From positions 1 to 64,000 of the forward strand of contig NZ_AYTW01000021.1 of assembly GCF_002752635.1 (NCBI RefSeq): DNA of 64,000 bases, written 5' to 3'. Position 1 is the stretch's first letter. Every line of letters begins with the position of its first letter. Shown piece after piece: positions 51,376 to 57,717 of the stretch. The notes below the pieces were generated by a model. That model worked only from the letters and a program-made list of their open reading frames with translations. It was not told the DNA's origin and ran no database searches. Origin of the DNA: Mesotoga sp. Brook.08.105.5.1. GTDB taxonomy: Bacteria; Thermotogota; Thermotogae; Petrotogales; Kosmotogaceae. The translations under genes and the position numbers were made by a program.

Positions 51376-52613
51376 TCGAAATAACTTCAAAAGAGAGAAT
51401 AATAGAAGCCCTGAACCACAGGGAACCGGATCGGGTCCCTATAGATTTTGGTGGAATGAGATCGACTGGAATCCATGCAATAGCATACAGGAAGCTTAAG
51501 GAGTACCTTGGACTATCAGACACATCGGTGAAAATCTACGACGTTTTCCAGCAACTGGCCCTGGTCGAAGAAGAAGTAAGAAAGAGCATGCATTCTGACG
51601 TCGTAGAACTCAAGAGACTCGACGGCGGCTTTGATACAAGAATAGATGAATGGATAGAGTTCGACTTGTTCGAAGACGGCGGAAGGTATCTTTTGCCTGC
51701 GGGTTTCGATCCAGTCACGTTAGCCGATGGTTCTAGAGTCATTATGAATGACGGCCGGATCGTAGCCAGCATGCCAAGAGGCGGATTCTACTTCGACGGG
51801 AAATACTTTCCCTTGGCTGGCACAGAAGACAAAAAGGCAATTGACGGACTCGTCCGTTCTGGTCTTTCAGAGAGGGAGATCGCTTTTCTGAAAAGCCAGC
51901 TTATGGAAATTAGGAACTCCGCTGACTGTGCGGTAATGGGAACGTTTGGAGGCAACTTTCTCGAGGCAGGACACACCTACTTTGGTTATCAGGAGTTCAT
52001 GGAGAGAATCATAACGGATCGACCGTTAGTCGAATACTTCCTTGACAAGCTTCTCGAGAAGTACACCGTTGAGCTCGAAAGGTACCTTCATGAATTCGGT
52101 GACGAAATCGACCTTATACAGATTGGAGATGATTACGGAACACAGGAGAATACGCAGATTTCGTCTCGGCTTTTCAGAGCGCTCTTCAAACCACGTTTGC
52201 AGGCGCTGTGCAATTATATTCATTCGAAGAAACCCGGGCTGTTTATATTCCTACACTCCTGTGGTTCTGTTTATCCCTTCATCGGTGATTTCATAGAGGC
52301 CGGCGTCCAGGTCCTCAATCCCGTCCAGACGAGTGCAAAAAACATGGAACCTGCGATGCTCAAACGGGAGTTCGGAAAGGATATCGTATTCTGGGGAGGC
52401 GGATGTGACACTCAGCATGTGCTGCCCTTCGGAACATTGGATGACGTTAGAGATGATGTAAAGAGGCGTATAGACATACTCTCTCCCGGAGGTGGTTTTG
52501 TCTTCGCTTCGATTCACAACATTCAAATGGAAATAGCTCCGGAGAAGGTTTTTCGACTATTTGACACGGCTTATAATTATGGAAGAGGTGTGTACTGTGG
52601 CAGGAAAAGATAG
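51372..52613 (+). CDS. Uroporphyrinogen decarboxylase-like (URO-D/MtaA) protein
   Basis: The 413-residue protein begins with the URO-D family start TSKERIIEALNHREPDRVPIDFGG and has a TIM-barrel body with LIQIGDDYGTQ, FLHSCGSVYPFIGDFIEAGV and VFWGGGCDTQHVLPFGT, the last containing a candidate Cys/His metal site. It is clearly not a haem gene by context; family members here often act as methyltransferases or have unknown roles in sugar clusters. GTG 51372 overlaps the upstream stop, and the 3' end overlaps the alpha-mannosidase gene by 17 bases. Confidence 0.85.
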   Translation: MIEITSKERIIEALNHREPDRVPIDFGGMRSTGIHAIAYRKLKEYLGLSDTSVKIYDVFQQLALVEEEVRKSMHSDVVELKRLDGGFDTRIDEWIEFDLFEDGGRYLLPAGFDPVTLADGSRVIMNDGRIVASMPRGGFYFDGKYFPLAGTEDKKAIDGLVRSGLSEREIAFLKSQLMEIRNSADCAVMGTFGGNFLEAGHTYFGYQEFMERIITDRPLVEYFLDKLLEKYTVELERYLHEFGDEIDLIQIGDDYGTQENTQISSRLFRALFKPRLQALCNYIHSKKPGLFIFLHSCGSVYPFIGDFIEAGVQVLNPVQTSAKNMEPAMLKREFGKDIVFWGGGCDTQHVLPFGTLDDVRDDVKRRIDILSPGGGFVFASIHNIQMEIAPEKVFRLFDTAYNYGRGVYCGRKR

Positions 52614-55230
52614 AATCGTGCTCGTCCTCTCCCACACCCACTGGGACAGGGAGTGGTACGAGTCGTTTGAATCCTTCAGGTATAGACTTGTAAAGGCAAT
52701 GGATAAGCTAATAGAAATCCTACAGAGTAGTACAGAATACCGTTGCTTCAACCTTGATGGACAGCTAGTGATACTGGAAGACTATCTGGAGATCAGGCCG
52801 GAGATGCGCCGAGTTCTCGAGGAACTTGTGACATCAGGTAGGATTGGCGTTGGTCCCTGGTACGTTCAGGCCGATGAGTTTCTCTCCGATGGCGAGTCGT
52901 TGATCCGCAACCTTCTGCTTGGTTCCCAGATAGCACACGAGTTTGGAGATCCACAGAAGCTGGCCTATCTTCCCGACACTTTCGGACACAATTCTCAAAT
53001 TCCGCAAATAGCTAGACATTTCGGGATCACTTCGTCACTAATTTGGCGCGGAGTGTCTGGCGATGACTTGCCATGGGAATTCATCTGGGAGGGAGCCGAT
53101 GGGAGCAGTCTGTACACTTACAGACTCCCGGAAAGACTGGGTTACTGCAACATGGCATTCACACCTGAGGGTCAACCTGTCGATTCGGCATTCTTTATAG
53201 GCTCTGCAAAGGAGTTCATGGAAAACTCCGCAACCGGCATGGTGGTGCTGATGGATGGCTGCGACCATGTTCAGCCAAGCGAGTCGATTCTTCCGTTCAT
53301 AGATCAGCTAAAAGAGACCGACAACTGTCTTTCCTGCAAACAGGCGCTTTTCAATGACTTGGCGGCGGAGCTGAAGAAAAGGATACCTGCCACCGAAGGA
53401 ATAAGAGTTCTTCACGGGCAGCTGAAAAACGTTAACATCTCCAAGAGGGGATACTTCAATTTCATTCTACCCAACGTCCTCTCCTCCAGGTGCAAAAACA
53501 AGCGCGAAAACTTTGACGCGCTAAACTGGCTAGAGAGTTATGCTGAGCCACTTGCGTCGTTCGCTCTACTCTTAGGAAAGCGGCATCCGGGAGGCTTCTT
53601 GCAGAAGGCTTGGAAGCTGGTTCTTCAGAACCTTGCCCATGACAGCATAGGTGGCTGCAGTGTGGATGAAGTCCATTTAGACGTATCGCGCAGATACTCC
53701 CACAGTATTGAGATAAGCAGAAATATAGCAATGGATTCGCTTTCAAGCTTGAGCGGAGCCGCTTCCGAAGGAGAAAATGACTTCTTTGTTGTCTTCAATC
53801 CATCACAATGTCCGACTAGTCCTGTGGAGATAGAGATTGATCTTCCTCATATTGCATTCGACAACCTCTCAAAGAGACCTGTTGTGAAGAACGAGACAGG
53901 TGAAGAAGTGGACTTCCAGATTTCTTCTTTACGCGAAACCGAGAAGTCTCTGAACTATCTTGGCGGTTCGGCGCCTATAGAGAAAGTTGTCTCTGTGAAG
54001 GGTTATCTTGGGTCGCAAATTGACGGGCTTTCCTTCGACAAGTTCCAGATATGCAGTTCGAGCAGACCGATCAATCATGACCTGTATAAAGCAAATAACA
54101 GTCGATGTCTTGAGAACAAGTTTTTGATGGTCACCGCAATGCCCGATGGAAGAGTTGAGATAATGAGCAAAGCCACCGGTGAAAAGCTCTTCACGAACCT
54201 CTTCGAAGACGGTGGCGATTGTGGAGATGGTTACGTTTATTCAAGGCCGCTTACCGATACCATTGTTACGAGTTCCGGCTCCCTAGAGACAGTAGAAGTA
54301 ATAGAAAACGGGCCACTAGCAAGGGCTATAAGACTTAGTTACACACTTTCGGTGCCAGTCGGTCTTGTTGAGAACGGACGCAAGCGCTCTCTTTCAAGAA
54401 CTGAAATGCCAGTTCACTGCACTCTGAGACTGATGGAATCGAGCAGTATTTTAGAAATCGAGACTGAGATTGCTAACAGTTGCGAGAATCACAGACTTCA
54501 GGTAAATTTCTGGAGGGAAAAACCAGGGAACGCTCTCTTCTACAAAACTCCGTTCGACATCGTAACAACACCAAAGAGCCAGCCCTCAAAAATCAACCCG
54601 AATTGGATCGAGGATGAACCTCTTGCCAGACCCAATAACGGTGTCTTCGGAGAAATCGAGAACACTGACAGATACAGCGGTTTCGCAGTAAGCACCAAAG
54701 GAATAAACGAGTTTGAAAGTTTCGAGCAAGGTCTTAAGTTAACCCTGTTCAGGGCAGTGGGCCACATAGCTTCTCCCTATCCTCTATCGAGTATGAAACG
54801 GCCTGCAGGGCCGAAGATAGAAACACCCGGGGCACAAATGAAAGGGAGTCTCACCTTTGAATACGCCGTCTTCTTCATAGATTCCCTTGAAGACATCGTA
54901 AAGAGAAGTTGTAGCTATCTGAAGAAGCCTCTGTCGATAGGCTTCGCAGGTAGGCGGCCTGAGACACCACTGACCGTAGATAGTTTGACGACGGAAGTAA
55001 CTGCAATAAAAAAGGCTGAGAATGGGGAGAGTATTATCCTCAGATTAGTCAATTTCTCAGAAGAGTCCGATAACGTCAAGATTCGACTGAGAGAAGGTCT
55101 GTTTAGCAAAGCCTGCTTGTGTACAGCCGCTGAGAAAAGAGAAGAAGAGATACCTATTCAGAACAATCTCGTCTCAGTTGCGTGTGGACCGAAGAAGATC
55201 GTTACGCTAGAATTTGAAATGAGCAGCTGA
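52597..55230 (+). CDS. Alpha-mannosidase, glycoside hydrolase family 38
   Basis: The protein (877 residues) has the canonical GH38 motifs: SHTHWDREWY (H13, H15, D17), ADEFLSDGESLIRNLL, LPDTFGHNSQIP (nucleophile D127), HDSIGGCSVDEVH and a beta-rich C-terminus. It has no signal peptide, so it hydrolyses imported mannosides in the cytoplasm. GTG 52597 lies eight bases after GAGG in GGAAGAGGTG; ATG 52579 and TTG 52561 are less well placed. It is the last gene of the plus operon, 38 bases before an IS605-type relic. Confidence 0.92.
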   Translation: MAGKDRIVLVLSHTHWDREWYESFESFRYRLVKAMDKLIEILQSSTEYRCFNLDGQLVILEDYLEIRPEMRRVLEELVTSGRIGVGPWYVQADEFLSDGESLIRNLLLGSQIAHEFGDPQKLAYLPDTFGHNSQIPQIARHFGITSSLIWRGVSGDDLPWEFIWEGADGSSLYTYRLPERLGYCNMAFTPEGQPVDSAFFIGSAKEFMENSATGMVVLMDGCDHVQPSESILPFIDQLKETDNCLSCKQALFNDLAAELKKRIPATEGIRVLHGQLKNVNISKRGYFNFILPNVLSSRCKNKRENFDALNWLESYAEPLASFALLLGKRHPGGFLQKAWKLVLQNLAHDSIGGCSVDEVHLDVSRRYSHSIEISRNIAMDSLSSLSGAASEGENDFFVVFNPSQCPTSPVEIEIDLPHIAFDNLSKRPVVKNETGEEVDFQISSLRETEKSLNYLGGSAPIEKVVSVKGYLGSQIDGLSFDKFQICSSSRPINHDLYKANNSRCLENKFLMVTAMPDGRVEIMSKATGEKLFTNLFEDGGDCGDGYVYSRPLTDTIVTSSGSLETVEVIENGPLARAIRLSYTLSVPVGLVENGRKRSLSRTEMPVHCTLRLMESSSILEIETEIANSCENHRLQVNFWREKPGNALFYKTPFDIVTTPKSQPSKINPNWIEDEPLARPNNGVFGEIENTDRYSGFAVSTKGINEFESFEQGLKLTLFRAVGHIASPYPLSSMKRPAGPKIETPGAQMKGSLTFEYAVFFIDSLEDIVKRSCSYLKKPLSIGFAGRRPETPLTVDSLTTEVTAIKKAENGESIILRLVNFSEESDNVKIRLREGLFSKACLCTAAEKREEEIPIQNNLVSVACGPKKIVTLEFEMSS

Positions 55231-55268
55231 TTGGTATTGCTCATTCTTTATAGAGGGCCGATATTTAC

Positions 55269-55662
55269 CGAAAGTGCCGTAAAGCCCCTAGCTTCAGCTA
55301 TGGGGATATAAGGCACATTCATGGCATATTATAAATAATCCATCAGTCGATGGCGACAAGCAGAAGTCATAAAAACGTTCTTTGAAAATTGGATAGAGTA
55401 TGGGGTTCTGATAGCTAATCATCTATCAGGTAAAACTCTATATGTCGTCATGTACAAGACCTAAAAACAAATTAGCGGACTAATAAGTCTGTGGCAGATG
55501 GTGTAGCGTAAGCGATAGTCTGCCAGCCCTAGGAGCTAATATGCTCTGCCTAGGGACGGGCTGATGGCACAGCCCTGAACTTGGGGTCATACTCCGATAC
55601 CAGAAATGGACTTCGGTTTAATCACCCAAGAATCCCCTGCCTTTAGACATGGGGAGTGTCAA
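55269..55662 (+). mobile_element. Non-autonomous IS200/IS605-type element relic, no tnpA or tnpB
   Basis: The left end has the subterminal hairpin CCCCTAGCTTCAGCTATGGGG (55285-55305 region), preceded by TTAC at 55265-55268, a plausible target motif. The right end has AATCCCCTGCCTTTAGACAT, then GGGGAGTGTCAA to 55662, which matches the right ends typical of IS605-group elements. Only about 180 bases of non-coding sequence separate the left hairpin from the structured right part, so both the Y1 transposase and TnpB are missing. The exact ends are inferred. It lies between two convergent genes. Confidence 0.65.
55490..55662 (+). ncRNA. OmegaRNA-like structured right end (orphan)
   Basis: Consecutive stems are visible. 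GGCAGA (55493-55498) pairs with TCTGCC (55519-55524). CCCTAGG (55527-55533) pairs with CCTAGGG (55549-55555), with inner AGC/GCT. CCGA (55594-55597) pairs with TCGG (55613-55616) around CCA-GAAA-TGG. CCCC (55634-55637) pairs with GGGG (55651-55654). This is the position and architecture of TnpB-associated omegaRNA, whose guide would be the flank right after 55662. With no TnpB gene here, function would need a protein supplied from elsewhere. Expression is not shown. Confidence 0.55.
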
Positions 55663-55905
55663 TAAGTCGTTCTTACCCCAAGAACTCCTACAGAGAGGAT
55701 GACTACCTAAGAGTTCTCACATATCTCCTTCCAGAATTCCGTAGACCCAATTCTCGTATTTGAAGGCATCGGTGAGATTGGAAGAACAGGTCGATGTCGA
55801 TATCGCCATCTTTATCGATGTAAGGGTCCGGAGGCTGAACTTGCTTCGAAAACCGTTAAGCCCAGAAGGCTTACCAAAAGCAGTTTCCAGGATAGATTCT
55901 CTTAT

Positions 55906-57717
55906 TCAGGCGTCCAGTACCCTAGATATTACAGAGAGCGTTCCTGTTGACCACAACTGAGGTGAGCAGCTGGCGGGATACTCTATTAACTTTCCTGACG
56001 TCTCGATTTTTGACAGACCGCTGAAGAGTTCGAGGAGGCGATTGTCATGATGCCTTTCCTTCGCCTTCAAGAGGTCTAGAGCGAGCCCTTTGGCCTTTTC
56101 CGAAAAACCGTAATTCATAAGCCCAAGCAGAATAAGCGAGTTGTCGTGCGGCCAGACGCTACCGTTGTGGTAGGAGAAGGGATTGTAGCGCTTCATTCTG
56201 CTCGAGAGCGTTCTTATTCCCCAGCCGGTGTACATTTCTTCGGAAAAGAGCCGTTCCACTAGCGCCTCTGCTTTGTCTTCGTCCACTATCCCTGTCATGA
56301 GGCAGTGGCCTGGGTTTGAAGTTATCGAATCGACCGGGTTCTTGTCTTTGTCGAGAGCCGTAGCGAAGTAGCTCTCGCTCTCGAGCCAGAAATCACGATT
56401 GAAATTGATCTTTAGAGTTGCCGCTCTAGAGGCATAGAGCGAGGCCATCTCTCTTTTGTCAAAGAGAACCATGAGCTTTTCGAGGCATTTGAAAGCGTCG
56501 TACAGATATCCCTGAACCTCTACGAGGGCAAGGGGCGGTTCTGCAAGCCTTCCGTCTGCGAAGCTCACCGAATCTGAGGAATCCTTCCAGCCCTGATTTA
56601 CGAGGCCGCTGCCCGAAGGAGCAAACTCGATATATCCGTCGTTATCTGGGTCGGCATAATCGTCGATCCATTTTGCAGCTGCCACGATGTTCTTCTCAAT
56701 GGATTTCACGAAGTTATTGTCATCTGTCTGAACGTAATACCTGTGAGCTAGCATTATGAAGAGAAGGGTAGCATCGATCGTGCCGTAGTATCTTTCGAAG
56801 GGGAGTTTTCCTGACAGAGAAAGCTCGTTCAGGCGTGTCTCGTGAACGATCTTTCCCGGCTGCGCTTCGGTCCTGTGATCTTCCTCTTCACTTTGAAGGT
56901 GAGCATGTGCCGTAAGAATATTTCTCGCTATTTTGGGAAGGAGATCAACTGTCTGAAGGCCAAAGATGAGGCTGTCCCTTCCGAAGACGGTCGCGTACCA
57001 GGGAAGACCGGCTCCAGGAAAGTCCCCATAGATCGTGGGTATCATGAGAGTCTTGAGATCCCCCAGCTCCCTTTCATTCAGCAGCGGAGTGTTTTTGACA
57101 GGTGAGATGTCCTTCACGGGTCTTTCCGACAACATCTTCTTGAAGATCACTTCTTTCTTCAATTCTTTGCTGAGTCTGAGCTTCCCGGAAAGGCTGGAAC
57201 TTCCGCCAGACTTCATTTTCATTGAAAGAGCCGGTAGAGAGTTCTCAACGATGTCTTTCTCGAAATCACTTTCAAACTCAAAGTTATTCGTTGTAGATGA
57301 TAACAGCGTCCTAGATATATCCAACCCTTTGTAAGCGTCGTTTTCTCCTCTAACAGAAAACATGTCTTCAAAGACGCAGCTGATTTCAAATTTGAAGGAC
57401 ACTTCTATATCCTCTGCCGAATAGTTCCTGACCGTGAGCTCTGTGTAAAGTGTGTTTCCCTCCGCGCGGAGGCTTTCAGTTACGTAGATATCGAAATGTG
57501 GAGCCTCGGGTTTAGATAGGCCAAGATAGCGGACTTCAATCCCGTCCCATGAAAAGTCAGAGTGAAGTCTTCTGAGTGGTAACGATGATTTGAGGACCAT
57601 TCTCGAAATGAAACGGGTGTCCTCCAGGTAAAGTCCGGCAGCCTTTTCGCCGTCGCAGTCGATGATCCCTTTGTCATCTGTCACGACCATAAGATTTCCA
57701 TTTTTGAAGATCTTCAT
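55906..57717 (-). CDS. Glycogen-debranching-type amylo-alpha-1,6-glucosidase / GH15-like enzyme
   Basis: The 603-residue protein has an N-terminal beta-sandwich domain of the GDE_N type (GLYLEDTRFISRM at about residues 28-40), then an (alpha/alpha)6 barrel with PWYATVFGRDSLIFGLQT, YYGTIDATLLFIMLAHRYY, GWKDSSDSV and YHNGSVWPHDNSLILLGL, the usual substrate-site segments with acidic residues. It has no signal peptide. ATG 57717 follows GAGAGGTG. Substrate (glycogen branch, sucrose or mannosylglycerate-like glycosides) cannot be told from sequence. Confidence 0.88.
   Translation of the reverse strand: MKIFKNGNLMVVTDDKGIIDCDGEKAAGLYLEDTRFISRMVLKSSLPLRRLHSDFSWDGIEVRYLGLSKPEAPHFDIYVTESLRAEGNTLYTELTVRNYSAEDIEVSFKFEISCVFEDMFSVRGENDAYKGLDISRTLLSSTTNNFEFESDFEKDIVENSLPALSMKMKSGGSSSLSGKLRLSKELKKEVIFKKMLSERPVKDISPVKNTPLLNERELGDLKTLMIPTIYGDFPGAGLPWYATVFGRDSLIFGLQTVDLLPKIARNILTAHAHLQSEEEDHRTEAQPGKIVHETRLNELSLSGKLPFERYYGTIDATLLFIMLAHRYYVQTDDNNFVKSIEKNIVAAAKWIDDYADPDNDGYIEFAPSGSGLVNQGWKDSSDSVSFADGRLAEPPLALVEVQGYLYDAFKCLEKLMVLFDKREMASLYASRAATLKINFNRDFWLESESYFATALDKDKNPVDSITSNPGHCLMTGIVDEDKAEALVERLFSEEMYTGWGIRTLSSRMKRYNPFSYHNGSVWPHDNSLILLGLMNYGFSEKAKGLALDLLKAKERHHDNRLLELFSGLSKIETSGKLIEYPASCSPQLWSTGTLSVISRVLDA

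Follow-up and report, generated by a model that had tools for sequence, protein, structure and literature searches.

IS608 of Helicobacter pylori carries both tnpA and tnpB, and it shares with its relatives a TTAC target and ends of the single-strand, peel-and-paste type. The element described here lies in a 64,000-nt stretch of the genome of Mesotoga sp. Brook.08.105.5.1 (the window); it has the same target and type of ends and carries neither gene. Guide-bearing gene-free IS605 derivatives have been noted before. Gene-free IS605 derivatives as such are already known, and a PATE-like element of Halanaerobium resembles the window element in its IS605 end hairpins, lack of a complete ORF, local IS605 right end and presumed mobilisation in trans; it consists of a 28-nt left end, 58 nt of tnpB and a right end, whereas the window element has a structured RNA domain and a promoter-like site instead of genes (PMC7290912). 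The guide RNA of ISDra2, called omegaRNA or reRNA, offers a second comparison: a stem-rich right-end RNA whose guide is the 3' flank and whose TAM is the insertion target (PMC8612924). The ISDra2 reRNA is about 150 nt long and derives from the tnpB 3' end plus the right end, whereas the RNA here would stand alone, headed by a structured 5' domain and lacking tnpB. The ORF-less IStron BcISt1 is likewise an ORF-free transposable element whose RNA matters (PMC4227781), but there is no group I intron here. Lastly, a report on AmaTnpB describes a region of its mRNA, nt 825-875, adjoining RuvC-II, that inhibits DNA cleavage in vitro, with base-pairing to the omegaRNA proposed for it (Nety et al., PMC10278001).

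How should the window element be understood? It is probably a non-autonomous IS200/IS605 guide-RNA element that encodes no protein, uses TnpA and TnpB in trans, and is now stranded in its present genome. An internal promoter would give rise to one RNA composed of the 5' domain, the omegaRNA and a guide supplied by the right flank. TnpB produced elsewhere would take this guide and cut the empty donor site (TTAC plus flank), and TnpA made elsewhere would move the element. We propose that the element is retained because TnpB cuts the empty donor site in trans; cutting of such a joint is a role proposed for ISDra2 (PMC8612924). The 5' domain might also protect the RNA, and the copy in the window's genome would be stranded because its partners were lost. 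What a sequence-only reading had taken for an orphan omegaRNA becomes a recurring, cross-phylum, gene-free class with a defined RNA anatomy, which raises the question of whether TnpB is exploited by guide-RNA-only parasites.

Ends and right part of the element

The sequence-only reading described a unit of roughly 0.4 kb with IS605-type end hairpins, four consecutive stems at the right end and no protein gene, and each of these statements holds. The element is 394 nt long, its longest stop-to-stop frame has 45 codons, and it is located between two convergent genes (Table 1). The left-end hairpin has the sequence GTGCC...CCCCTAGC-TTCA-GCTATGGGG...GGCAC. The four stems lie in series 5' of the right-end hairpin, at 55493-55524, 55527-55555, 55558-55575 and 55580-55630. 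Subterminal end hairpins, a fixed 5' target and the absence of target duplication are the marks of a non-autonomous IS200/IS605 element, and all are present. When compared with dinucleotide shuffles, the fold has a z of -5.0 for the whole element and -3.4 for the right part.

Table 1. Features of the gene-free element and its surroundings (positions in the window)
Feature	Position	Strand	Basis or remark
Upstream neighbour gene, 889 aa, alpha-mannosidase-like by eye	52561..55230	+	Outside element
TTAC, IS608-type insertion target and expected TAM, not duplicated	55265..55268	+	TTAC in 14/15 distinct non-coding copies with recognisable left end
Whole non-autonomous element, no ORF	55269..55662	+	394 nt; 96% identical 394-nt copy at a different locus in sister genome G001
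Left-end hairpin, IS605-type	55274..55316	+	93-100% identity to left ends of tnpA-tnpB elements in G001/G004
Possible promoter region TGGCATATTATAAAT (G001 copy: TGGTATATT)	55320..55345	+	Weak in window copy
Conserved 5' RNA domain, predicted structure (model R1)	55355..55490	+	130 bits; covariation; Bacillota members
Hairpin H0, GAC-AAGCAGAA-GTC, then ATAAAAAC	55355..55376	+	Same form as hairpin in tnpB mRNA
Kernel: GTTCTTTGAAAA, stem ATAGAGT/ACTCTAT, internal loop ATGGGGTT/GTAAA, inner hairpin CTGATAG/CTATCAG	55377..55441	+	
Hairpin H4, CGTC-ATGTACAA-GACC, then TAAAAAC; second copy of H0-type motif	55446..55468	+	
OmegaRNA scaffold-like right part, including right-end hairpin	55489..55662	+	Homology to tnpB elements, starting in last tnpB codons
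Right-end hairpin CCCC...GGGG	55634..55654	+	Fold and covariation of right part
TCAA, right-end cleavage site	55659..55662	+	Sequence; ends of complete members of window's group
Would-be guide flank TAAGTCGTTCTTACCCCAAG	55663..55682	+	Position, analogy to ISDra2 reRNA (PMC8612924); differs per independent copy
Downstream convergent neighbour gene, 603 aa, glycan-debranching-like by eye	55906..57717	-	Outside element

A sister genome, G001, has a complete tnpA-tnpB element of 1787 nt (L028) with ends that match those of the window element. Its left end is 93% identical, and the last 174 nt of the window element are 94% identical to the DNA directly 3' of its tnpB. Across 18 sequences, including both tnpB-carrying and gene-free copies, 23 of the 30 predicted pairs in the right part show compensatory change. 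Because relatives have this stretch directly after tnpB and 23/30 pairs covary, the resemblance goes beyond chance. The right part has two characteristics expected of an omegaRNA, homology to the region at and behind the tnpB 3' end and a conserved secondary structure, and the omegaRNA-like right end that the earlier reading had seen is borne out. An IS605 relative with a matching right end, whose absence would have counted against that reading, exists. No Rfam family matched the element at gathering or relaxed thresholds. Since the tnpB-carrying relatives match none either, Rfam seemingly has no model for this type of omegaRNA.

The middle of the element and its distribution

What lies between the two ends? 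The middle, 55355-55490, is a conserved RNA domain of predicted structure rather than leftover DNA; the earlier reading missed both the domain and its connection with the mRNA of tnpB. Its structure comprises 28 pairs, which are 94.7% paired across 12 sequences. Compensatory cells number 51, as compared with 15.2 +- 3.2 in shuffles, and the signal is destroyed when pairing partners are slid against each other. RNAalifold recovers the main helices unaided. The domain is absent from Rfam at both gathering and relaxed thresholds. In the Brevibacillus daliensis copy (L047:5800-5990), the hairpin-TAAAAC motif apparently occurs three times rather than twice. Upstream of the domain, a promoter search on the element strand of the window copy gave no match, and this copy has only a degraded version of an extended -10 site. 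Within the range tested, an extended -10 is present in 15 of 23 related copies, versus 2.1 in shuffles, and in most Bacillota copies it lies 30-77 nt 5' of the kernel.

A plasmid search matched 55355-55469 to a gene-free element of Bacillus plasmids (74%), and a pattern scan of 84,980 species found members in Ohessyouella, Caryophanon, Virgibacillus, Metalysinibacillus, B. glycinifermentans, Aneurinibacillus, Brevibacillus and Ectobacillus. Two of the 15 pattern matches on genome contigs (L036 and L049) looked like chance and were discarded. In the order that contains Ectobacillus, the covariance model identified members in at least 14 of the 397 genomes, and in that of Ohessyouella in at least 3 of 392; these counts are lower bounds based on eight candidates scored per genome. 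In the window's own phylum, the domain occurs in 2 of 103 genomes, both from the window's genus, plus a copy in G004 that is cut by a contig end. Horizontal acquisition is likely. ORF-free IS605 elements with the domain recur in many Bacillota, at about 1-8 copies per genome. In the window's group, complete members have a length of 394-457 nt, TCAA ends and a TTAC target; non-coding copies sit at several unrelated loci, and the sequence 3' of the right end is different in each independent copy. A divergent group of gene-free IS605 elements in Bacillaceae (L087-L112, e.g., L088:1425-1990; G263, G408, G327), which is among the members from the order of Ectobacillus, keeps the kernel and has extended -10 promoters with TATAAT; a single genome can contain as many as eight copies. 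One gene-free copy from the order of Ohessyouella (L126:1349-1660, in G678) has a strongly diverged kernel and a window-like right end. Matches in a phage collection were limited to the short end hairpins, and two pattern scans of viral contigs gave one chance match and zero matches, respectively.

Partner elements and alternative explanations

Could such an element be mobilised and served in trans? The complete element in G001 encodes a Y1 TnpA of 135 aa and a TnpB of 363 aa, both with intact family matches, and the TnpB is a relative of solved Cas12f/TnpB structures. The same genome has a gene-free copy of 394 nt, 96% identical to that of the window, between unrelated genes in another intergenic region. 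An intact autonomous element with matching ends and copies at unrelated loci agree with the earlier suggestion that this could be a miniature element mobilised in trans. Autonomous relatives with the same ends also occur on plasmids: those of B. velezensis and B. carboniphilus each have a non-coding copy and a tnpA-tnpB element. Moreover, the 3' halves of non-coding copies are 93-97% identical to post-tnpB DNA of the same genome in Ohessyouella and 86% identical in Bacillus glycinifermentans. The ends and 3' half of gene-free elements thus track the local tnpB element, and the TnpB of Ohessyouella is of another type, meaning that the 5' domain travels with different types of omegaRNA.

The situation in the window's genome is different from that in G001. 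A search for the TnpB domains PF07282 and PF01385 gave no match, and no intact TnpB was seen. There are three Y1 transposase matches; two are about 300 aa long, and the third is interrupted by many stops. Judged without alignment, none resembles the 135-aa partner TnpA. The sole relative of the element (L006:6400-6763, contig C6 of G000) is a relic, a right end with 95% identity that has a broken tnpB tail on its 5' side; it is the only trace of the autonomous element in this genome. The earlier idea that the RNA could use a TnpB encoded elsewhere must be qualified for the window's genome, which offers a relic only. In G004, fragments of the element lie at contig edges; none does so here, which makes it unlikely, we infer, that an intact copy was collapsed. 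Activity in this genome today is also unlikely, given that neither an intact TnpB nor a TnpA resembling that of the element was seen; the window copy is probably inert and its partners appear to be gone. No empty site was found in the genus, where the genes flanking the window copy are not syntenic, or among seven Bacillus plasmids, all of which are occupied. Plasmid pBM19 of B. methanolicus contains the relic of a right end together with a broken tnpB tail (L025:2501-2603), next to rpe and an IS200-type tnpA.

There are several other ways to account for such an element. One is that it is an ordinary internal-deletion derivative of IS605, a PATE or MITE with mobile ends and decaying filler between them, its omegaRNA half kept only because it overlaps the right end. 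PATE-like IS605 derivatives are known in Halanaerobium (PMC7290912), the ends and right part here match the local tnpB element, and, as expected of a PATE, the element keeps the ends and lacks an ORF. The element nevertheless contains more than ends: the middle is a covarying RNA domain kept across phyla, which strongly disfavours this explanation, and the omegaRNA stems 5' of the right-end hairpin covary in non-coding copies as well. In addition, the described PATE retains a tnpB tail with no other insert, whereas the tnpB remnant here is limited to the last codons. We regard a simple deletion derivative as unlikely. A domesticated guide RNA, a host small RNA put to regulatory use at this locus, would explain why the copy is intact in a genome where TnpB and a cognate TnpA were not seen, and the earlier reading had suggested one next to a sugar operon. 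A link of that kind is not supported, with the closest copy sitting at another locus in G001 and the flanks of independent copies differing. Domesticated guides have a conserved position and a TnpB-derived partner; other genus members searched have no copy at this place, and without TnpB, or a repressor derived from it, such a guide would lack a partner. Domestication is therefore very unlikely.

The remaining alternatives concern the 5' domain. It could be a small self-splicing or catalytic RNA by which the element is excised from transcripts, given that IStrons join a ribozyme to IS200/IS605 or IS607 parts and that ORF-less IStrons exist (PMC4227781). Neither the element nor its relatives match a group I or group II intron, even at relaxed thresholds, and at ~140 nt the domain would be short for a group I core. 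The copies are also intergenic, with promoter-like sites of their own, so an IStron is scarcely credible. Alternatively, the domain could be an antitermination or stability leader in which GTTCTTTGAAAA acts like a boxA to protect an untranslated RNA. We take this string to resemble the boxA of Gram-positive rRNA operons; a near-boxA string is found in most copies, and the divergent Bacillaceae group preserves it well, near the putative start. The copies in Ohessyouella have GAACATTGAAAA in its place and a compensatory GTTC in the partner strand, which means that base pairing is conserved there rather than the boxA sequence. A search of the window's own genome for a ribosomal-leader copy of GTTCTTTGAAAA found one other weak site, not in rRNA. 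This explanation seems quite improbable, and boxA as the sole explanation is not supported.

A hairpin shared with tnpB mRNA

What might the 5' domain do for a guide-RNA element? A hairpin of the H0 type, GAC-AAGNANAA-GTC...TAAAAC, is also found in tnpB mRNA. Among 14 orthologs with a median protein identity of 60%, synonymous conservation in tnpB is strongest at ACG GCA AGA ACA AGC CGT AAA AAC, codons that spell the hairpin CGGC-AAGAACAA-GCCG-TAAAAAC. The synonymous excess at these codons is 0.557, as compared with 0.047 +- 0.055 in other windows and a permutation maximum of 0.149; a second peak corresponds to the terminal overlap with the omegaRNA. The hairpin codons lie ~277 nt 5' of the stop, just past the glutamate of RuvC-II, whose position was judged by eye from the HMERL motif. 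Coordinated changes on the two sides of the stem (GAC/GTC) occur in Paenibacillus and Staphylococcus; those in Staphylococcus alter the amino acids. A strict search of gene-free elements for this hairpin gave 16 matches in 14 elements, versus 0.007 in shuffles, and H0 and H4 have the same form. The covariance model of the 5' domain gives weak matches at a consistent position inside tnpB. We rejected the possibility that the whole 5' domain is the 5' part of an omegaRNA overlapping the tnpB frame; tnpB genes hold the H0-type hairpin only.

No description of the tnpB hairpin or of the 5' domain was found in Rfam or in the open-access literature searched. The closest parallel is the inhibitory region of AmaTnpB mRNA: both are RNA features beside the RuvC-II codons, at a corresponding place in different TnpB clades, and the tnpB hairpin described here may be the counterpart of that region. 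The ortholog differs, and the part of that report available to us describes no hairpin or conservation for AmaTnpB (PMC10278001). Tentatively, and with somewhat less than even confidence, we suggest that the 5' domain presents the RuvC-II hairpin motif of tnpB mRNA and may thereby bind or regulate TnpB, through loading, processing or inhibition. A more far-reaching interpretation, which we consider doubtful, is that these elements form a class of RNA-only satellites, in which the guide RNA is headed by multiplied copies of a hairpin that TnpB recognises and that is possibly inhibitory. With a tnpB-mRNA hairpin at its head, the satellite RNA would both recruit and restrain the TnpB of autonomous elements, and the hairpin would be a previously unlocated cis-regulatory element of the tnpB mRNA in this clade. 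A strongly RNA-constrained hairpin within the tnpB reading frame, repeated in stand-alone RNAs, provides an evolutionary handle on the control of TnpB. It makes TnpB regulation testable with short RNAs, and it is relevant to the recoding of tnpB for editing.

A second clade of tnpB genes (L062, L063, L067, L070, L075, L079, L144-L169) also has an isolated island of synonymous conservation near RuvC-II. This island covers the codons around REN-R-W-M..DVNH (CGA GAA AAC CGT TGG), with an excess of 0.30 versus a permutation maximum of 0.124, and can be folded as CAACG-AGAAAAC-CGTTG.
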